A stretch of 53,124 nucleotides of DNA, taken from the IMG/VR virus record IMGVR_UViG_3300023091_000001, positions 1 to 53,124 of that record. One strand, written 5' to 3'. The translations under genes and the position numbers were made by a program. Below the pieces are notes generated by a model that was given only the letters and a program-made list of their open reading frames with translations, was not told where the DNA came from and ran no database searches. This DNA comes from a virus. The stretch's first letter is position 1; each line of letters begins with the position of its first letter. This document shows positions 2,779-43,645 of the stretch, in pieces.

Positions 2779-4257
2779 TTACCAGTAGGGGATTACGTGA
2801 GTTCCGCCATTAATTGTGCACTGGATATACCCCGTAGGATTTCCACTGTAACCCGCAGGCAGATTTGTTATAGTGCCAACACCCGATGCAGCAGCGGCGG
2901 TTGCAGTATTGATTGCATGTTGGGGAGTAGCGCTCGCAGACCCTAGTGTTACAACACCGTTTATTGTTAACTGCTGCCCAGATACTGTGCCAGGACCAGT
3001 GGCTAGAGTTCCCCACATTAAAGAGTAGGCTCTATCACCAGCTATACCAGACTGCACTACGTTATTAACATAAAATTGATTAGATCCTGTTTCGTTATAT
3101 CCAGCGGTATAACCTAAAGCTATGTTACCCGTTCCTACATTATTTAAGTATAATGCCCCATGTCCTATAGCTGTGTTGCCTGTACCGGTCGTATTAGCAT
3201 TCAAAGAGTAATTGCCAAAAGCAACATTTAAAACTCCTGTAGTGTTATTGGTTAAAGATACATAACCTACTGCAACGTTATAATTCCCATGGGTATTGGC
3301 AGCAAGAGCATTATCACCAAATGCCTGATTCCAACTGCCATCAATGTTATTCAACAATACATTGGTCCCAACTGCTGTGTTGTGAGAACCGGTAGTGAGA
3401 TTAGTTAGAGCTGCTGTACCAATGGCTATATTGGGACCTCCAGTAGTGGCTGTGTTTAACGCATTATTTCCAATAGCGATACTTGACGAACTCGTCGTAC
3501 TTGACTGTAAAGCACCTTGTCCTATAGCGACGTTACTACCGCCAGTTGTGTTGAAGTGAAGCGCCCAAGTACCTATTGCAATGTTGCTGGTTCCTGTGGT
3601 GTTGCTTAAAAGTGATTGATATCCAATCGCCTGGTTATCTGTACCCGTCGTTGTGGAGTATAGTGCTTGATAGTTTAATGCAGTATTAGCACCACCAGTT
3701 GTGTTTGAGTATAAGGTCTCATATCCAATAGCAACGTTAGGACTTGGAGCATTGGTATTGTAAAGTGCACCGTAACCTATAGCTGTATGACCTGGCCCAG
3801 TGGTATTTAAACCTAAAGCTAGAAAACCGATACCGATATTCGCATAGCCCGTTGTATTAGAAAGTAACGCCGAGCCTATCGCAACGTTGCTGTTACCGGT
3901 TGTATTGTTCCATAACGCTTCAAAACCTAAAGCAGTATTCTGAATACCAGTCGTATTGGCCTGCATCGCTTTAAAACCAACCGCAACGTTATAAGTACCA
4001 ATTGTATTGTATCTTAAAGCATTCGAACCTATGCCGACATTCTCAAAACCCGTACCATTCTGAAATAATGCACCAACACCGATACCAACATTATCACTAC
4101 CAGTAGATGTGAGAGCACCCGCCCCAGAGCCTATAAAGATATTGCTAGCTCCTGTGGTCACAGCGCTTAGTGAAGAACTGCCAATCGCAATATTATTAGT
4201 ACCGGGCGTATTTACCGGTATACCAGAGCCACTGGATGGATATCTAAGATAACCCAT
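2779..4257 (-). CDS. Fibre with YadA-like head repeats
   Basis: A 492-residue protein. From about residue 15 to 400 it consists of some fifteen imperfect repeats of about 24 residues of the type N(I/V/T)AIGxxALxxNTTG. This is the signature of the left-handed beta-roll head domain of trimeric autotransporter adhesins, which also occurs in phage fibres. The last roughly 90 residues are a non-repetitive C-terminal domain ending in CTINGGTHVIPYW. It starts MGYLRYPSSGSGIPV. It lies between two paralogous small proteins in the minus-strand tail operon and most likely forms a trimeric host-binding fibre. The repeats are visible directly; the trimeric fold is inferred from the family. Confidence 0.85.
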   Translation of the reverse strand: MGYLRYPSSGSGIPVNTPGTNNIAIGSSSLSAVTTGASNIFIGSGAGALTSTGSDNVGIGVGALFQNGTGFENVGIGSNALRYNTIGTYNVAVGFKAMQANTTGIQNTALGFEALWNNTTGNSNVAIGSALLSNTTGYANIGIGFLALGLNTTGPGHTAIGYGALYNTNAPSPNVAIGYETLYSNTTGGANTALNYQALYSTTTGTDNQAIGYQSLLSNTTGTSNIAIGTWALHFNTTGGSNVAIGQGALQSSTTSSSSIAIGNNALNTATTGGPNIAIGTAALTNLTTGSHNTAVGTNVLLNNIDGSWNQAFGDNALAANTHGNYNVAVGYVSLTNNTTGVLNVAFGNYSLNANTTGTGNTAIGHGALYLNNVGTGNIALGYTAGYNETGSNQFYVNNVVQSGIAGDRAYSLMWGTLATGPGTVSGQQLTINGVVTLGSASATPQHAINTATAAAASGVGTITNLPAGYSGNPTGYIQCTINGGTHVIPYW

Positions 4258-4663: not shown

Positions 4664-7456
4664 CTAACGGCGCTGTAGCTCGCGAGTCATGCTGGCCTGG
4701 CTAGGTGTCATGTCTAACATGTTGGTTTTACCAAGCTTTTTAGGAGTGCCTCTGCTAGGAGTATTAGCCTGCTGTAATTGCTGCGATGAGGAACGAGCAA
4801 ACACTGCCTGAGCCACGTTTATGGACGATGGGGATAAGGTAGAATCTAGGGGTTGCCCTAGTATTTGTGAGATTCCAGATCGCACACGGTACGGAATTTC
4901 TTCCTCTTTAGCCGTTCGTTTAGTGACTTGGTCCATAAGTTCACGTCCCATACGCGGAAGAGCGCTGGGATAGATGGCATTTACTGTATTTAAGTCCTGC
5001 TGTTGAAGTGTGCCCTGCTTTAAATGCTCTATAACTCGTGCTGGGTTATTGGCTATGTCCAACTGACGGTTGAATTGCTCTTGTGCAGCCTTACTAACTT
5101 CTCCACGGTCTAGTGGCCCGGATTTAACAACTTGCGGACGTATTGAGTTCAGATAGGTCGCAGCAGCTGTTAACGTTTTCGACAGTGACTGTTGAGAATC
5201 TGGGAGATAGTGAGCTAAAGTGGTATCCGAGTTATCCATAAGTTGCTGCGGATTTAGCTGCAAATCCTGAATCCGCTTATCTAACTTACCCCGCTCATTA
5301 TCAGACAGCTCTGGTATAACAGCCTTAGACCCCTTGTCGAAAACATTCTTTACGCTTTTGACCAACGCCCCATCGCCTTTAGAAGCTTGCTCAGCAAACA
5401 TAACCATTTTACGGAATGCTGCCGAATCCACAGCTGCGGGAGTGCCAAAAAACTTCAATAATCCGATTCTAACAGCATCGGGAACCTTAGTGCTTAGAAG
5501 ACGCATCGTCTCCCCTAAGGCGTACCCGGTGACCGGATTTTTACCCAACAACCATCCAAGGGCACCGGTGAGCTGAGCTGGCATGTGGCTTAGAACAGCC
5601 ATTAGCCCCTTACCGGCTTTAAAAGGGCTACCTTTGTAGTTTAATACCCCAGAAGCCTGACCAGCCCACCCCAGCTCTTGCTGTTGAGCGGGAGTTAATA
5701 TAAAGTTACGAACTTCCGGAGTTAAGGCAGCCATCTTTTTGGAGATTGTCCCGCTACTCACCACCTCACCCGGCTTCAACAATCTTGCTGGCGTGGAGGG
5801 TTTTAGAAGGAGATTGGTTATCATGCGCTCTTTAACAGCTTCGGCAGTTTGTGGAAACTCTCTCTGCAATAATTGTGTGAAATTAGCTCGATCGGTGGGG
5901 GCCATTCGTTGAGCAAACAATTCGGGTTGGTCCTCTGCCATTCGTGACACATTATCCAGAATAGTTTTAGGGCTATCCCCAGATACTTTGAGCTGCTGCT
6001 TAAGCATGCCCAGAGTGTCCATCAAGTTACCGTGCTCACCTTTAGCAGCATACCATGAATCCACTGCAGCTTGCCCTTCAGGAGAGTTCTGAAAGTGCTG
6101 TTCTACCCCCGTCTCGTAAGACTCATTATAGATTCGCGACATTTTGCTTTTCGCTGCCATTACGTCTTCAGGAGTTTTCCAATCCCAGGAAGCCAGATTC
6201 GATTTAGACTTCATCACATCGTCTAGGGTTTTTATATTATCTACATCCCGAATTGCTTGTTTGACTAACTTAGCTGCTGGAGTAGATGGGTTGATGGCGT
6301 AATCCTGGTCATACATCGTCTGCAATTTATCTTTAAGGAACACGTCTGGCTGGCTAACTTTTCCAGTCTCAGGGTCTTTCCACGGAGTCTCCGGTTTAAA
6401 CGGAGCATTTCCAATCTGCTCTTTAACTTGTTCATAAGCAGCGTCTCGTGCATCAATTTTATCTTGCATTTCTGACACTAAGGTGTCACCAATTTTCCCA
6501 CCGGCCTGTGCATTAGATGCTTCAGAAATATCTGCTACGTCCGCATCTGTTTTTCCCACCTGTTTTAAGGCATAACGAGAAATCTGCCCATTAGCATCCT
6601 CAGCAGCCTTAACCACTTTTGGCGCTTCCTTGTCCATCATTTGCTTGTATAGTCCTGACTCCAATGAGCCATCTGGGGCTAAACCGGATTGCGCTATTGG
6701 GTTCAATTCAGGACGTCCTATTGAAGCGGCTCCGCCTTCTGCGGCTGGAGCGGTTAAGCCTTCAAAGTCGGGATGATTGTATTTACGAGCAAGAGCTTCC
6801 AAAACGGAATTCGTAGACTCTGAGGCGGGGCTAGCTGTCCACAGGGCTTCAGTCCCTTGACCTAGATGACCAACCGCTGCTCCAAATAATCCGCTCAACC
6901 CAATATGCTGCGCGGCGCTAGAAACTGTTTGGTCAGGGTCGTTTGCAAACGCTTTGCTGACCTCGTCTGTAGCGCCAAGCAGCGCATTCTGAGCTGCCGC
7001 ACTAGCGGCTGCAGAACCAATCCCAACCTTACCTAGTCCGAGAGCTTCGGCGGCGGCCTCTCCTGCAATTCCTGCGCCTTCCAAAGCGCCAGCAATAGGC
7101 GCTCCCACATAACCGGATCCTAAAAGAGCTGCGGTGTCAGTGGTCATTTTTATAATGGGATTTAATTCTTCGGCTCGTTTTCTAATATCTTCGGCGGGTA
7201 CTCCGATTAGCCGTTCGAAACCGGTAGATAATCCGCCCGTAAGGGTGCTAGCAGCCGATTCAGCGGCTCCTTGCGCTTGCTGCAATGGGGTTCCATATTG
7301 GGCCGTTTGCTCCTCTTTCTGCAAACTCTGCAGTCCCATATCCAGCGGATCAGCTTGAGGCGTTGATGCAGCATCAGGTGTGGATTCAGGTTGAGGGGTG
7401 CCTTGTAAATTAAGAGGGTCAGAATTCTCTAGCAAAGCTTGGTCTAAAGCGTCCAT
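4664..7456 (-). CDS. Large internal virion / DNA-ejection protein
   Basis: A 930-residue protein, mostly helical and Gln/Ala/Ser-rich. It has an acidic, disordered N-terminus, a Gly/Ala-rich amphipathic or hydrophobic stretch at about residues 105-210 (AALLGSGYVGAPIAGALEGA and neighbours), and a long charged helical remainder. Its place at the end of a series of large proteins (593, 430 and 930 residues) downstream of the nozzle gene is where podoviruses encode ejection proteins that enter the cell envelope with the DNA. No lytic transglycosylase motif was recognised. The assignment rests on size, composition and position, not on a recognised family. Confidence 0.65.
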   Translation of the reverse strand: MDALDQALLENSDPLNLQGTPQPESTPDAASTPQADPLDMGLQSLQKEEQTAQYGTPLQQAQGAAESAASTLTGGLSTGFERLIGVPAEDIRKRAEELNPIIKMTTDTAALLGSGYVGAPIAGALEGAGIAGEAAAEALGLGKVGIGSAAASAAAQNALLGATDEVSKAFANDPDQTVSSAAQHIGLSGLFGAAVGHLGQGTEALWTASPASESTNSVLEALARKYNHPDFEGLTAPAAEGGAASIGRPELNPIAQSGLAPDGSLESGLYKQMMDKEAPKVVKAAEDANGQISRYALKQVGKTDADVADISEASNAQAGGKIGDTLVSEMQDKIDARDAAYEQVKEQIGNAPFKPETPWKDPETGKVSQPDVFLKDKLQTMYDQDYAINPSTPAAKLVKQAIRDVDNIKTLDDVMKSKSNLASWDWKTPEDVMAAKSKMSRIYNESYETGVEQHFQNSPEGQAAVDSWYAAKGEHGNLMDTLGMLKQQLKVSGDSPKTILDNVSRMAEDQPELFAQRMAPTDRANFTQLLQREFPQTAEAVKERMITNLLLKPSTPARLLKPGEVVSSGTISKKMAALTPEVRNFILTPAQQQELGWAGQASGVLNYKGSPFKAGKGLMAVLSHMPAQLTGALGWLLGKNPVTGYALGETMRLLSTKVPDAVRIGLLKFFGTPAAVDSAAFRKMVMFAEQASKGDGALVKSVKNVFDKGSKAVIPELSDNERGKLDKRIQDLQLNPQQLMDNSDTTLAHYLPDSQQSLSKTLTAAATYLNSIRPQVVKSGPLDRGEVSKAAQEQFNRQLDIANNPARVIEHLKQGTLQQQDLNTVNAIYPSALPRMGRELMDQVTKRTAKEEEIPYRVRSGISQILGQPLDSTLSPSSINVAQAVFARSSSQQLQQANTPSRGTPKKLGKTNMLDMTPSQASMTRELQRR

Positions 7457-18420: not shown

Positions 18421-19047
18421 CTATTTTTTTGTGTACTCTATAGCTTTGTCGCGTGTTTTAGGATTATCGAGAATTGCGATAGCTCGGTTGCAGCCATGGC
18501 AGAGTAGCCCACGAACCCGACCAGTTTTGTGATCGTGATCTACAAAGAGACCCCATTTACCTCTTGGGGGTCCTCCACAAATAGCGCATACTCCTTTTTG
18601 TTCATAAAGCATTTTAGAAAAATCGGCTGGTGTAAGCTTGTACTTTTGAAATCTCATCTTCTGGTAATTTTTGTGATTGTAAGACCTCATTTTTGCAATA
18701 TAGTGTTCACGATTTAACTCACGCCACTTACCCGTTGTTGCGTTTTTACAGTATTTGCACGTGTTCCTATGCCCGTCCGACATTCCGTAATCTCGATAAA
18801 AATTAATCATAGGTTGAGGATTGGATTGAGTACACCTAGGGTTAGTACAATTTTTTTCAGTTCTTTTTGCTTCAACAAAACCTTCATTAAACGCTTTGCG
18901 TAAGTTATCTCTTCTGTTTTTTTGCTGGGCTGCTTTACAGTATTTGCATTGACTCTGCAAACCGCTCTGGTTTCTTCTGTCAGATAAAAAATTAGTTTCT
19001 GATTGCGGATTTAGCTGATTGCAGTTCTTGTTACTACAGGTCTTCAT
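18421..19047 (-). CDS. Endonuclease VII-like homing endonuclease, free-standing
   Basis: A 208-residue protein. Two N-terminal zinc-binding repeats (C-x4-C ... C-x2-C at about residues 4-45 and 52-95, with QCKYCKAA and TCKYCKNA) are followed by a recombination endonuclease VII-type core: CAICGGPPRGKWGLFVDHDH, KTGRVRGLLCHGCN and AILDNP. The DHDH..G.VRGLLC..CN signature gives the His-Me nuclease site with its structural zinc. The start at 19047 has GGAGGT 7 bases upstream; a longer frame to 19095 has no such site. It lies just downstream of the intron-split capsid gene, behind its own promoter, and is related to the endonuclease inside intron 1. Confidence 0.85.
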   Translation of the reverse strand: MKTCSNKNCNQLNPQSETNFLSDRRNQSGLQSQCKYCKAAQQKNRRDNLRKAFNEGFVEAKRTEKNCTNPRCTQSNPQPMINFYRDYGMSDGHRNTCKYCKNATTGKWRELNREHYIAKMRSYNHKNYQKMRFQKYKLTPADFSKMLYEQKGVCAICGGPPRGKWGLFVDHDHKTGRVRGLLCHGCNRAIAILDNPKTRDKAIEYTKK

Positions 19048-19115: not shown

Positions 19116-19144
19116 AAAAAGGGCTTGATCTTTCGACCAAGCCC
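19116..19144 (-). terminator. Intrinsic terminator after the major capsid gene
   Basis: Minus strand: GGGCTTGGTC, GAAA tetraloop, GATCAAGCCC, then TTTTT. This is a 10-pair stem (one G.U) with a stable loop and a U-tract, 26 bases after the capsid stop codon. It should separate the very highly expressed capsid transcript from the genes downstream. Confidence 0.85.
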
Positions 19145-19169: not shown

Positions 19170-21498
19170 TTATGCTGATAGTAAGCAGCGTCCGTTCCAA
19201 CCCGGAGCGTTGTTGCAAAGGTTTCCGTAGTACGTATTTGTTATCATTGAGTTTTTTATCTCAATTTCTTTGGCTTCGACTTTTGCCAAAGTCCAGCATA
19301 CATTTTCAATCTTTCGATTGTCATCCACTCTTGGAGATTTTTTATTCTGTGTAATCACAGTTTCAATCCCTACGCGTTACGCAGCCATCAACCAGTTACA
19401 GTCAATGGTTTGCTCGGTATTAGCATCACAGCTTTCACCGATTTTGGACGATTTTACATCGGCAACTACGGATTTGCGGAAACAGCCTTCCAAGGCTTGC
19501 AATCCATGAGTTACAGTCACAATGCTCGAATCCGATAACTCTATGATATTATTACCGATGCGGATTTCGAGCGCATCTGCCGTTCCCACGCGTAACCCTT
19601 CGAGACCTTCGAGTCCATACGTAAGCACGTGTGGCATTTTACCGAGGGATTTCAGCTTCCATGTGTCGAGCTGAAGCATGAACGCGTTCTTCGCGGGGCA
19701 GTTTCTGTCAGCGATGACAGTCATCTTCCCGGTCTGACCGCTGAGCTGTATCCCTTCGAAAGAGATATCAACTTCGTCATGTTTCACGTCAACATACTGG
19801 ATCTTCGCACCCAACGACTTCTCAAGGCTGGCATAAGAGACTGGGTTAATGAAAACATAGTCACTTGATGCACCCATGAGGTACATTTGGGCGTTCAGGT
19901 CGATCAGAGCTTCCTCGATGGGCCTATCATTCAGAACCTGATAGACACCAGAAAGCCTTTGGTCGGCTGAGCGGTTAACATTCCAGAACGAGTCAGTGCT
20001 TGCGACAGAGGTCGGAATCCACGCGGCCATTCCAGAAATCTTCAGGAAGGAGCCTGTGGTCGACGCACCAGCCGCTGGCAAATCACCGTCCACGCTGATG
20101 AAGCTGAGGGCGGCCCAGTTGCCTGACAATGAGCTGGAGACTGAGGTGCTGGAGATACCAGTCACGATGCCATTGATTCGGTCAATGCCCGTGATCTGAA
20201 CGGTGTCGGCTGAAGGAGCGCTGCCGTCGGTCGCAGACGCGACGAGCAACATTCCGACTTCCAACTTCGTGGTATCGGCGGCGTTTGTGATTGTGAAAAC
20301 TACAACGTTGGTTGCACCTGAGGTGGTCGGAGCAGCCGCGATTTGGGCGCGGGTTCCTGTGCCGTCACCAAACAGATCGGACGCGAGGTCGTTCGTGATA
20401 TTCCGAAAACCAGTGTCCATGTGGAGTTTGCATTCATCCACGAATGCGCCAGCGTTGTCCTTGGTGGCTTCGAGAAGTTCGTTCGTGATCGAAACAACTT
20501 CGTAGTTGCTGACACGATAAACCAGGAAGCTCGCCACGGCAGCGGCGGTCTGTTGTGATTGGGCGTTACTGAACGTTGCACTACGGCCCTGTGGGGCACC
20601 GTATACTAGGGGCACTGGGAAATACTTCAAATATCAGCTAGTTAGCTGACTTTGTTATCGCCGGGGCTCTTTATCCCAGGCTTCTTAAACTTCTTTAAGT
20701 ATGCGGCTAATTGTTCAATCATTTCGAGACTATCTTGCATATATCCTAATGCTGGATTACACCGATCACACAATAAAGCTCTCACGACTCCAGTCTGATG
20801 ATCGTGATCTACAGCAAATTTGCGTTTCATTTGGTCTTGCACGATTCCACATGATGCACAACATCCGTTTTGAGCATTAAACATGGTATTGTACTGCTCA
20901 ACACTAATCCCGTAATGCCGTTTTAAATCATGCTTAAAATACGTTTGTTTTCGACTTTCTGGATGCTTGGCATTCCAAGCGAGTCTAAATTCACGTTTAC
21001 AGGATTTACATTGGCTGTTGAACCCATCGGAATGTTGCTTATCTTTGTGAAAAGCGCTAGTCTCTTTTTCTATCTTACACTTGCTACATACTTTTAGTTT
21101 AAGTTCAGAGCACATTTTTTGACCTCCACCATCTACAAAGGTATCACATATCATCCGATACCGCAATACTTTTGTTTCGGTCTCAGTCAATCGGACACTC
21201 TTGGGAGCATTATATTCTGGCATTGCCAGGGTCAACTCCTGCTCGTTACGCTGATTATGTCTTTTTACTTCCATAATTTAGCTCGGTATTTGCATCTCAG
21301 CATTCACCGATTTTGTCCAATTTAACGTTGGCAAGTTTATCGTTCACCAACAAACCCTTGGGTTGATTCGTCCTTAGGGACTAGAGCCAAAAACGGATTC
21401 CGTTTAAAGATCAGGTCCTTCATGACGTAACTGGGATCGTCGTATAGTTCCTTCAGTGCCGCGATTTGGTTACTAACATTGGCATATACAGCAGCCAT
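19170..21498 (-). CDS. Major capsid protein, three exons split by two group I introns
   Basis: Exon 1 is 21498-21346 (51 codons, MAAVYANVSNQIAALKELYD to ESTQGFVG), exon 2 is 20627-19554 (358 codons, KYFPVPLVYGAPQGRSATF to LEIRIG), and exon 3 is 19232-19170 (20 codons plus stop, YYGNLCNNAPGWNGRCLLSA). Joined, they give a 429-residue protein with no phase change. The join FVG-KYFPVPLVYG and the ending APGWNGR are what HK97-type podovirus capsid proteins of this kind show. Exon 1 has GAGG 9 bases before its ATG. Read without splicing, exon 2 would need a TTG start with no ribosome-binding site and would end in 58 residues of intron sequence. The scaffold gene is upstream, a strong terminator downstream. 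Confidence 0.88.
19233..19553 (-). ncRNA. Group I-type intron 2 in the major capsid gene, no internal gene
   Basis: A 321-nt insert. The 5' exon end CATCGGT (19560-19554) pairs with GCCGATG (19463-19457) over 7 bases with U.G at the splice site (P1, with a loop of about 90 nt). CCGTAGT (19471-19465), one base upstream of that guide, pairs with ACTACGG in the 3' exon (19231-19225) as P10. The last intron base is G (19233). P4 is TCGGT/ACCGA (19441-19437 with 19418-19414); P5 is AGC/GCT (19433-19431 with 19424-19422). I did not draw P3, P7 and P8. The stretch reads through from exon 2, which makes the unspliced frame look like one gene. Confidence 0.82.
20628..21345 (-). ncRNA. Group I-type intron 1 in the major capsid gene, carrying a homing endonuclease
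   Basis: A 718-nt insert. The 5' exon end TGTTGGT (21352-21346) pairs with GCCAACG (21332-21326) as P1, with U.G at the splice site and a loop of about 13 nt. ACTT (21336-21333), next to the guide, pairs with AAGT at the start of the 3' exon (20627-20624) as P10. The last intron base is G (20628). P4 is TCGGT/ACCGA (21310-21306 with 21287-21283) and P5 is TGC/GCA (21302-21300 with 21293-21291). A terminal hairpin CAGCT-AACT-AGCTG stands just before the 3' site and overlaps the stop of the endonuclease gene. Core helices P3, P7 and P8 were not fully drawn. Confidence 0.85.
20642..21115 (-). CDS. Intron-encoded endonuclease VII-like homing endonuclease
   Basis: A 157-residue protein inside capsid intron 1. 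One N-terminal zinc repeat (VCSKCKIEKETSAFHKD, then QCKSCKRE) precedes the endonuclease VII core: CCASCGIVQDQ, FAVDHDHQTGVVRALLCDRC, and NPALGYMQDS. The start at 21115 is chosen because GGAGGT lies 6 bases upstream. A longer frame to 21274 would translate the conserved intron core and is not credible. Homing endonucleases of this type cut intronless alleles so that the intron is copied in. The gene at 18421-19047 is a relative with two zinc repeats. Confidence 0.85.
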   Translation of the reverse strand: MCSELKLKVCSKCKIEKETSAFHKDKQHSDGFNSQCKSCKREFRLAWNAKHPESRKQTYFKHDLKRHYGISVEQYNTMFNAQNGCCASCGIVQDQMKRKFAVDHDHQTGVVRALLCDRCNPALGYMQDSLEMIEQLAAYLKKFKKPGIKSPGDNKVS

Positions 21499-22630: not shown

Positions 22631-23008
22631 AAATAGCTCTCCTTAAGTTTTGTGTTGCTAGCTTGCCGCAATTCAGGTGCGACGCCTGGAATGCACAAAT
22701 TGTGAATTCATGAAAGGCAGTATGTGTGTGTATTTGCCTTATATGCGTTATGCGCCGCCGCAGGGCTCGGGGGGAGAGGAAATGAGAGTAGGGCGGCCAA
22801 CTCAACTAGTAATATATACTCAATATCGCGTAGTTAAGTAGTGAAGCCTTTATATACTACTTAGTAATATATACATACTCAATATCGCGTAGTACAGCTA
22901 TTAAGCTCGAAATCACTTGCAATCCACAACGAAATAAGTTAGTATTAATTCATGGTCGAACAAGAAAAGCCTAAATCGTTCGACCAGCGGAATTCTCGGA
23001 GGAGCACG
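22631..23008. other. Divergent intergenic region between the late (leftward) and recombinase (rightward) units
   Basis: About 320-380 bases without a convincing gene. It holds the leftward start region for the scaffold/capsid transcript, an AT-rich stretch with two direct repeats (22807-22834 and 22862-22893), and the upstream region of the zinc protein. Short frames here (for example 22608-22805 minus) have no coding character. Confidence 0.6.
22807..22893. repeat. Pair of direct repeats upstream of the serine recombinase
   Basis: TAGTAATATATA-CTCAATATCGCGTAGT at 22807-22834 recurs at 22862-22893 with a 4-base insertion (CATA) in the middle. The centres are about 57 bases apart. The spacing region itself contains TATATACTAC and similar half-sites. 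Repeats of this type next to a resolvase gene can be recombination (res-like) sites or operators. Each copy also holds TTGAGT on the minus strand, a possible -35 element for leftward transcription. Confidence 0.55.
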
Positions 23009-23239
23009 ATGTCCCGAAAATCGAATCAAAAACAGAACAAAGCGGGTTTCACAAAAACTTGCCGGACGTGTAGAGCTAAGTTGCCTCTTGAAAAATTTTT
23101 TTACTCGGAGCTTACGGGGGACTACCGTTGGGCGAACTGCGCCAAGTGCGCTGCAGCTAATATTGCTAACGAAAAGTACGGCTCCCTGGAAACGCAGGAG
23201 TTGTGGTTTCATAGATTGGACTGGTTACTACTTGGGTAG
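23009..23239 (+). CDS. Small zinc-binding protein upstream of the recombinase
   Basis: A 76-residue basic protein with CRTC...(about 30 residues)...CAKC, a four-cysteine treble-clef or zinc-ribbon layout (TCRTCRAKLPLEKFFYS and NCAKCAAANI). The layout resembles the N-terminal zinc repeat of the endonuclease VII-like genes of this genome. The start at 23009 is preferred because GGAGG lies 6 bases upstream; an upstream ATG at 22952 lacks a site. It ends 9 bases before the recombinase start, so the two are probably co-transcribed. Confidence 0.7.
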   Translation: MSRKSNQKQNKAGFTKTCRTCRAKLPLEKFFYSELTGDYRWANCAKCAAANIANEKYGSLETQELWFHRLDWLLLG

Positions 23240-23248
23240 GAGGTTTTT

Positions 23249-23857
23249 ATGCCAGGACACGCATTAGGTCGCGTAGCAATTTATCTGCGCTGCAGCACAA
23301 ACGAACAAACCACGGATTCCCAGCGGGTCGAGCTGCAGGAGTACGTTGCTCATCGCATGTACGCTACTTTGGAAATTTTTGATGACGCTGGCCACTCCGG
23401 GGCTTCAACCAATCGTCCGGAAATGAAACGGCTGATGAAACTGGCTCGTGAGCGGAAGATTGATACCGTGGTAGTATACAAACTCGACCGCTGGTTTCGC
23501 TCTCTGAGTGAGACCGTGTGGACCCTGAAAGAGTTGACCGAGTTGGGGATTTCGTTTATCGCTCTAAAAGACCAGATTGATTTAACCACTGCGGTCGGAA
23601 GGCTGACTGCAAATATGCTAGCGAGCTTTGCGGAGTTCGAGCGCGAGATTATTTCCGAACGAGTTCGAAGCGGGTTGAAGGCGGCTAAAGCTAAGGGCAA
23701 GCGCTTGGGGGCGAAACCCAAAGACGTGGACATGACGCAAGCTCGTGCTCTGATTGCGTCCGGTAAGTCTTACGGAGAGACTGCTAAGATTACGGGACTA
23801 CCGGCTAATTTTATCTATCGCCGACTAAATCCCAAGGCTCCAGAGACTGTGGAGTGA
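23249..23857 (+). CDS. Serine recombinase (resolvase/invertase family)
   Basis: A 202-residue protein with the full resolvase layout. The catalytic Ser16 lies in IYLRCSTNEQTTDSQR. DAGHSGASTNRPEMKRLM follows at about residues 46-63, VVVYKLDRWFRSLSET holds the active-site arginines, and a long E helix (LASFAEFEREIISERVRSGL) leads to a C-terminal helix-turn-helix (ALIASGKSYGETAKITGLP). AGGAGG stands 6 bases before the ATG. Length matches small resolvases and invertases rather than large serine integrases. Possible roles are resolution of genome multimers, inversion of a segment, or integration with help. Direct repeats 360-440 bases upstream are candidate sites. Confidence 0.88.
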   Translation: MPGHALGRVAIYLRCSTNEQTTDSQRVELQEYVAHRMYATLEIFDDAGHSGASTNRPEMKRLMKLARERKIDTVVVYKLDRWFRSLSETVWTLKELTELGISFIALKDQIDLTTAVGRLTANMLASFAEFEREIISERVRSGLKAAKAKGKRLGAKPKDVDMTQARALIASGKSYGETAKITGLPANFIYRRLNPKAPETVE

Positions 23858-42926: not shown

Positions 42927-43610
42927 TCACTCACTAATTTGACAATTCGCTAGCACAGTAAAATCGCATGAAGAGTTTATCGCATTGCTGGCATATACCC
43001 CAGGAGGAATCAGGGCTAAAAACCCGTCATTCGCTGAGTAAACAGCATATAGATTCCCCCCAACACAAATTCCATATTCCGGGAATGTCGTGGGATATGT
43101 GGGGGTCACGTTCGGACAAAACTGCACGGTTGTGACTGGAGTAGCGTCCTTACCATCAGTCCCGGGTGTTCCCTGAGGACCAACAGCCCCATCTTGACCG
43201 TTAGTGCCATTAGCTCCATCCACCCCAGCAATGCCTTGAGGACCTTGCGGACCTACTGCTCCATCCTGTCCATTAGCGCCTGTAGCGCCTGTAGCGCCTG
43301 TAGCGCCTGTAGCGCCTGTAGCGCCTGTAGCGCCTGTAGCGCCTGTAGCGCCTGTAGCGCCCTGCGGACCCTGCGGTCCTTGGGGACCCATAGGCCCAGC
43401 AGCTCCCGTCAATCCTTGAGCCCCTGTAGCCCCTGTAGCGCCGTTTGGCACTATTACTGGGTCATTACCCAAGCAGCTAACCTGAATCCCAGAAGCTACC
43501 ACAGTGGTGGTACATTCTGGGGGATTAGTAACAAAAGCCGTAGTCCCACTTTGTCCGCATCCTACGATAAAAATACCCAAAAACATCAGACCCATAAAAT
43601 TGTACACCAT
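42927..43610 (-). CDS. Collagen-like lipoprotein
   Basis: A 227-residue protein. A signal peptide with a lipobox ([12 protein letters not shown]) precedes a short domain and then a Gly-X-Y run from about residue 58 to 150 ([20 protein letters not shown], (GAT) repeats, [32 protein letters not shown]). The C-terminal roughly 75 residues are globular with two cysteines near the end. Start 43610 has GGGAGG 4 bases upstream; a start at 43622 would place that site inside the gene. The lipid anchor suggests display on the envelope rather than on the virion. Phage collagen-like proteins are usually fibres, so a lipidated one is odd. Confidence 0.85.
43276..43356 (-). repeat. Nine perfect 9-bp repeats in the collagen-like gene
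   Basis: Nine identical units of GCGCCTGTA (plus-strand reading) in tandem, encoding nine Gly-Ala-Thr triplets on the minus strand. The unit is a multiple of 3, so slippage changes the length of the collagen domain without shifting the frame. Perfect identity over 81 bases points to recent or frequent expansion. Confidence 0.9.
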
Positions 43611-43645
43611 ATTTCCTCCCATTTATAAACTGTACCACATCTTAA

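Follow-up and report, generated by a model that had tools for sequence, protein, structure and literature searches.

How does a phage produce an intact major capsid protein when the first 51 codons of the gene are separated from the main reading frame by 718 nt that contain a nuclease gene? The question is raised by a linear IMG/VR virus record of 53,124 nt, analyzed here over its whole length and referred to as the window, in which the capsid gene lies on the minus strand. An original prediction, made without database searches, had proposed that the gene is split by a group I-type intron carrying an endonuclease VII-like gene. The capsid gene matches the Pfam family SU10_MCP at 29.7 bits (cut-off 24.1), and judged by this score and by the fitting product length of 429 aa, it is the gene of an SU10-type major capsid protein. 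No relatives were detected among cultured phages using tblastn with the capsid protein, and no capsid relative was confirmed in the bacterial genome contigs that were scanned.

A search of viral contigs with the main capsid frame identified 48 related loci, and in most of them the junction ...GF(A/V)G|KY(F/I)PVP... is continuous in one frame, so the 718 nt at 21345-20628 are extra sequence. The predicted coordinates of the split proved exact: relatives run straight across, the insert is missing from the intronless ones, and none of the relatives found translates it. The optional nature of such inserts is observed directly, the insertion point of intron 1 (site 50/51) being empty in about 90 relatives and occupied in others, including four (L023, L071, L268, and L284) with full introns of the same family at this site. 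The original prediction was right about this intron but missed a second one at 19233-19553, and the gene is interrupted twice. Intronless relatives are continuous over both junctions and end in ...EIRIGYYGNLICNAPGWNCVV(S/Q)LS or close variants; the window frame continues after EIRIG with unrelated sequence up to a stop, and YYGNLCNNAPGWNGRCLLSA* follows 321 nt later. On this alignment, the apparent C-terminus of the open reading frame (ORF) at 19377-20630 is read-through into intron 2, and the real C-terminus is encoded by exon 3. Mechanical gene calling errs at both ends of the capsid gene, losing 51 N-terminal residues and adding a false C-terminus. The spliced product of the three exons (Table 1) has 51 + 358 + 20 = 429 residues, and close relatives have 427-430. 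Exon/intron borders were obtained from a purpose-written spliced protein-to-DNA alignment, with the last base of each border set by the U...G rule. That alignment also suggested a third interruption, at codon 423, which was dismissed, as the C-terminus and stop of exon 3 are normal.

Table 1. Features of the interrupted capsid gene and its surroundings, in window coordinates
Feature	Position	Strand	Details
Capsid exon 1	21346..21498	-	51 codons, MAAVYANVSNQ...TQGFVG, GGT at end; aligns with N-terminus of uninterrupted SU10-type capsid proteins
Intron 1, group I, with homing endonuclease gene	20628..21345	-	718 nt; borders, P1, P10, held-out covariance model E=4.7e-29
Intron 1 P10 guide ACTT	21333..21336	-	Pairs with 3' exon AAGT (20627-20624), 4 bp
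Intron 1 internal guide sequence GCCAACG	21326..21332	-	P1 with exon GTTGGT (21351-21346), 7 bp, U.G at cut
Intron 1 catalytic core	21101..21322	-	Covariance model and helix pairing; P8 enlarged
Intron 1 P3	21320-21314 / 21197-21191	-	TTGGACA/TGTCCGA, 7 of 7 pair, outside covariance model
Intron 1 P4	21310-21306 / 21287-21283	-	
Intron 1 P7	21244-21240 / 21112-21108	-	GAGCA/TGCTC
Likely ribosome-binding site GGAGG of intron 1 nuclease	21123..21127	-	7 nt before ATG 21115; overlaps P8 3' strand; inference
Homing endonuclease gene in intron 1, Endo VII / DHHRN type	20642..21115	-	157 aa, motif VDHDHQTGVVRALLCDRCN
Capsid exon 2	19554..20627	-	358 codons, KYFPVP...EIRIG, first codon AAG at 20627
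Intron 2, same group I family, no endonuclease gene	19233..19553	-	321 nt; P1, covariance core 19289-19453 (E=8.1e-31), fold z=-4.8
Intron 2 internal guide sequence GCCGATG	19457..19463	-	P1 with CGCATCGGT, 8 bp
Capsid exon 3	19170..19232	-	20 codons and stop, YYGNLCNNAPGWNGRCLLSA; matches conserved C-terminus GYYGNLICNAPGWN of relatives
Terminator-like hairpin and T run, 3' of capsid gene	19116..19144	-	Sequence GGGCTTGGTCGAAAGATCAAGCCCTTTTT
Free-standing Endo VII-like gene	18421..19047	-	208 aa, PF02945 E=2e-18; after capsid terminator, before next conserved gene

The splice-site pairings that had been written down for intron 1 are all present in that form: P1 (TGTTGGT/GCCAACG) with a U.G pair at the cut, P10 (ACTT/AAGT), and the terminal G. 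A U ends the 5' exon, the G at 20628 is the last intron base, and the 3' end of the intron reads CAGCTAACTAGCTGATATTTG. Intron 2 is likewise preceded by a U and has the G at 19233 as its last base. Its P10, read from the sequence, pairs GTAGT just before the guide with ACTAC of the 3' exon, giving 5 bp after one mismatch, and its P3, outside the covariance model, has 7 of 7 pairs. Intron 2 folds far better than its shuffles (z=-4.8); the 90 nt between its guide and its own 5' splice site form a long loop, which we count against it.

Recognition of P4/P5 in the insert was borne out by the P4/J4/5/P5 motif ATCGGTGAA-N6-16-AATACCGAG: each intron has one copy and the window no others, where none would be expected by chance. 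Across viral contigs, the motif was found in at least 120 stretches. A core alignment of P3, P4, P5, P6, P6a, P7, P7.1, and P8 was assembled from 32 cores of other contigs, with the window excluded. Pairing is seen in 94.4% of its cells and drops to about 40% when the partner is slid by one base; 30 of 41 pairs are changed on both sides, and doubly changed cells number 323 versus 88 in shuffles. The sequences were picked by the P4/P5 motif and P3/P7 pairing, and this choice accounts for part of the covariation of P3, P4, and P7; no such selection applies to P5, P6, P7.1, and P8, and P7.1 has double changes in five of its six pairs. The covariance model built from these outside cores gives two matches in the window and no others, at 19453-19289 (E=8e-31) and at 21322-21101 (E=5e-29), and with P1, P10, P3-P8, and P7.1 all located, the proposal of a group I-type intron holds. 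The P7 of intron 1 (GAGCA/UGCUC) is a compensated variant absent from the training set of the model.

Phage introns of the T4 td type belong to group IA. The feature of that subgroup, extra P7.1 (and P7.2) stems between the P7 5' and P3 3' strands, is met in the window, where the P7.2 hairpins were read from the sequence as CTGGC/GCCAG in intron 1 and CTGTG/CACAG in intron 2. The general group I features, U.G in P1, terminal G, P10, the P3/P7 pseudoknot, P4-P6, and P8, are observed in both introns. The order P1-P10-P3-P4-P5-P6-P7-P7.1-P8, the extra P7.1, and a nuclease gene in a peripheral loop are shared with group IA phage introns (T4 td type; Bacillus phage introns, PMC11878797), but the cores of the window's family mostly have a GCGUA/UACGC-like P7 and are not recognized by the Rfam model RF00028. 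When RF00028 was run on the window, no match was obtained at the gathering score or at E<=10. The covariance search that was to decide on a P3/P7/P8 core therefore came out divided, Rfam itself finding nothing but the purpose-built model finding the core with P3, P7, and P8 present. As a control, 18 loci were scanned, L018, L023, L027, L032, and L050 among them, and 14 of the 18 share the P4-P5 motif. RF00028 was reported in one at the gathering score; since the other 17 were also without a match, its silence on the window is uninformative. The mismatch is a detection limit of RF00028 and not a defining feature of group I introns. As this model is blind to nearly all introns of the window's family, phage introns are under-counted, and group I introns of this type are invisible to routine annotation. 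The architecture identifies both inserts as group I introns, and it is from this architecture, with no RNA evidence, that self-splicing is inferred.

The endonuclease VII-like gene expected in the insert was identified by a match of the intron 1 frame to Endonuclease_7 (PF02945, E=1e-23), the closest solved structures being Hpy99I and T4 Endo VII. It has the D-H-H-R-N residues by which the DHHRN homing family is defined, together with Cys pairs (CC..C...VDHDHQTGVVRALLCDRCN), and its gene lies in an insert whose site is occupied in some relatives and empty in others; DNA cleavage and homing are inferred. Because most homologs align from residue 53 or later of the mechanical ORF (start 21274) and GGAGG lies 7 nt before an ATG, translation of the nuclease very likely begins at 21115, giving 157 aa, rather than at 21274, as far as can be predicted from these signals. 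Within 21127-21108, the ribosome site then falls in the P8 3' strand, the ATG in J8/7, and codons 2 and 3 form the P7 3' strand. This overlap suggests that ribozyme folding and splicing may be mutually exclusive with nuclease translation, the inferred competition being with the folding of P7 and P8. Endo VII-type nucleases are carried by many introns of the capsid relatives. Homologs of the free-standing nuclease are found just downstream of the capsid gene in relatives both with and without introns, which marks it as an optional element. Both collaborative homing and homing nucleases of Endo VII type carried by introns have been described, and F-CphI, which mobilizes the psbA intron of S-PM2, is a precedent for a free-standing nuclease in this role (PMC6083498). 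By analogy, the free-standing nuclease of the window may mobilize the nuclease-less intron 2.

Other genes of the window include a serine recombinase (23249-23857; Resolvase PF00239, E=5e-43) on the strand opposite the structural genes, with a small zinc-ribbon-like gene beside it (22952-23239). The regions 2779-4257 and 42927-43622 encode a 492-aa AIGxxAL-type repeat protein and a collagen-like GATGATGAT protein, and these two are possible fiber or surface proteins.

We assign a probability of about 0.95 to the reading in which one precursor with three exons and two self-splicing group I introns gives the 429-residue capsid protein and the intron 1 nuclease homes, with splicing, DNA cleavage, and homing all inferred. 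The capsid gene would be transcribed as a single precursor containing the three exons and the two related introns; P1 and P10 would bring the exon ends together, and P3-P8 would make up the ribozyme, whose guanosine site lies in P7. Attack of free guanosine after the U of the exon would release that exon, which would then attack after the terminal G of the intron, joining the exons into the message for the 429-residue protein. The Endo VII/DHHRN nuclease of intron 1 would cut intronless capsid genes of co-infecting relatives, and repair would copy the intron in; intron 2, lacking a nuclease, may be mobilized by the free-standing nuclease downstream.

Expression data are lacking for this metagenomic contig and mobile elements do decay, so the inserts could be inactive relics in a capsid pseudogene, or the split could be an assembly artifact. 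Either version is difficult to reconcile with three open and conserved exons, exact boundaries, the intactness of every core helix, compensated changes in P7 and P3, a spliced protein of normal length, and independent contigs that carry same-family introns at the same site, and we consider both very unlikely. Still less can be said for removal of the inserts at a level other than RNA. Ribosomes are known to skip an untranslated stretch in T4 gene 60, but P1, P10, the terminal G, and a full ribozyme core would have no role in such bypassing, and in-frame stops in both inserts rule out an intein, leaving this explanation scarcely credible. The group I model of Rfam stays below threshold on the window, which would be compatible with introns of another class such as group II; however, P1 with U.G, P10, the P3/P7 pseudoknot, P4-P6, and the terminal G are all present and covarying, and Rfam reports no group II family on the window either, so that we give this possibility almost no weight. 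Self-splicing of two group I introns remains the preferred reading.

The window is one instance of a wider pattern. A capsid survey covered 124 distinct SU10-type loci, 83 of which are uninterrupted in a single alignment, and full introns of about 200-870 nt were found at about 20 positions in the capsid gene of relatives. To judge from these alignments, the SU10-type capsid gene is an intron hotspot, and the interruption pattern is typical of the capsid family. The L032 capsid gene contains three small group I introns of another type (4728-4951, 5735-5943, and 6268-6473; ACGACTAAGTGAGA...GATAGTCTGAAC), the second and third of which are nearly identical.

Capsid genes of relatives also contain 28 distinct inserts of 30-59 nt, here called minis, that have P1, P10, and a terminal G; at this length they are too short for a ribozyme core and have none. 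Examples are L023 4252-4285, L184 3060-3107, L275 (codon 50), L059 (codons 45 and 413), L313 (codons 29 and 45), and L254, in which a mini of 57 nt at codon 45 accompanies a full intron at codon 54. A T precedes each mini and a G ends it, but this T...G rule was used to fix the boundaries and is not independent evidence. For 24 of the 28, the combined P1 and P10 score was unmatched in 2000 shuffles of the insert; one of the remainder has p=0.001 and three have p of about 0.01-0.04. In the three minis at codon 30, P1 forms only with a one-base bulge, for which the score makes no provision, and the one at codon 45 of L257 is the remaining weak case. Removal of a mini restores the frame. Read-through is ruled out by an in-frame stop in 27 of the 28 and by lengths spread evenly over the three phases (9/9/10 modulo 3); these lengths also rule out ribosome bypassing, together with take-off and landing codons that agree in none of the 28. 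Two apparent minis in L092 (codons 137 and 143) were rejected as alignment artifacts (shuffle p 0.52 and 0.06).

The distribution of minis follows that of full introns: they occur in 18 of 23 loci with a full intron versus 0 of 91 without (Fisher p=8e-17), a count restricted to loci from the protein search, and one in which related contigs lack full independence. A full intron always follows the mini on its 3' side within the same gene, at a distance of 7-37 codons apart from one case at 100. Minis also occupy positions at which other phages have full introns, codons 28-29 and 33-35 among them. The L275 mini sits exactly at the intron 1 site of the window, and the L059 mini at codon 413 lies at most one or two bases from the intron 2 site; the window capsid gene itself has full introns only and no mini. 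Several minis end in a hairpin followed by GATATTTG (L100 and L276) or a close variant, resembling the 3' end of intron 1. A tether, in which the tail of a mini would be complementary to the core of the nearest full intron, was rejected as a general feature (partner mean 15.6 versus non-partner 15.7); single cases in L248, L100, and L254 show 7-9 bp at about the P6 position. The simplest interpretation, inferred without RNA data, treats minis as introns whose own core has been lost and whose splicing is performed by that of a neighboring intron. That they are natural core-less group I introns, excised by a full intron's ribozyme core acting on the shared transcript, seems to us moderately probable.

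A 6-nt insert was observed in L018 (4707-4790; IMGVR_UViG_3300007363_000053), where TAACTG, which contains a stop, stands between GCTGGT and KYIPV. The full intron that follows has two guides, GCCGG for its own site and GTATTTGCCAGC fitting removal of TAACTG; the arrangement is known from this single contig only.

The closest known capsid intron is that of mycobacteriophage LittleE, a mobile group I-type intron with a homing endonuclease frame in a phage major capsid gene, for which RT-PCR and N-terminal sequencing demonstrated splicing (Pope et al. 2013, PMC3706429). In LittleE, a single intron interrupts a Siphoviridae capsid gene, and the nuclease frame is LAGLIDADG-like and on the opposite strand (PMC3706429), whereas the window has two introns in another capsid family and an Endo VII-type nuclease on the sense strand. 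The DHHRN homing nucleases (PMC6083498) resemble the window enzyme in their Endo VII catalytic motif and in being intron-encoded or free-standing beside an intron; here the target is the capsid gene and DNA cleavage is only inferred. The window introns thus add a case to documented types, the capsid intron of LittleE and the intron-borne DHHRN nucleases (PMC6083498). For the minis, the closest analog is the group I spliceozyme, an engineered Tetrahymena ribozyme that removes a separate core-less intron of 64-100 nt from pre-mRNA and works in E. coli (PMC4094466). The spliceozyme finds the splice sites by its own guide and a P9.2 helix in trans (PMC4094466), whereas each natural mini carries its own guide sequence and no tether was found. 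No natural core-less introns served by a ribozyme were found in the literature, our coverage of which mostly excluded subscription papers; if a neighboring intron does splice them, such minis would be something new in biology.

On the preferred reading, the most abundant protein of this phage depends on two ribozyme reactions. Splicing of minis by neighboring cores, if it occurs, could also account for the way in which a homing element shields a target site remote from the point where it is itself inserted; we offer this as a hypothesis. If minis are spliced by neighboring cores, they would form a natural system in which core-less introns rely on one common ribozyme, and they would provide guide-programmed splicing substrates. 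They would then represent introns that outsource catalysis, as has been suggested for the path by which spliceosomal introns arose, although here within group I, and this route to spliceosome-like splicing would be directly testable with 40-nt substrates.
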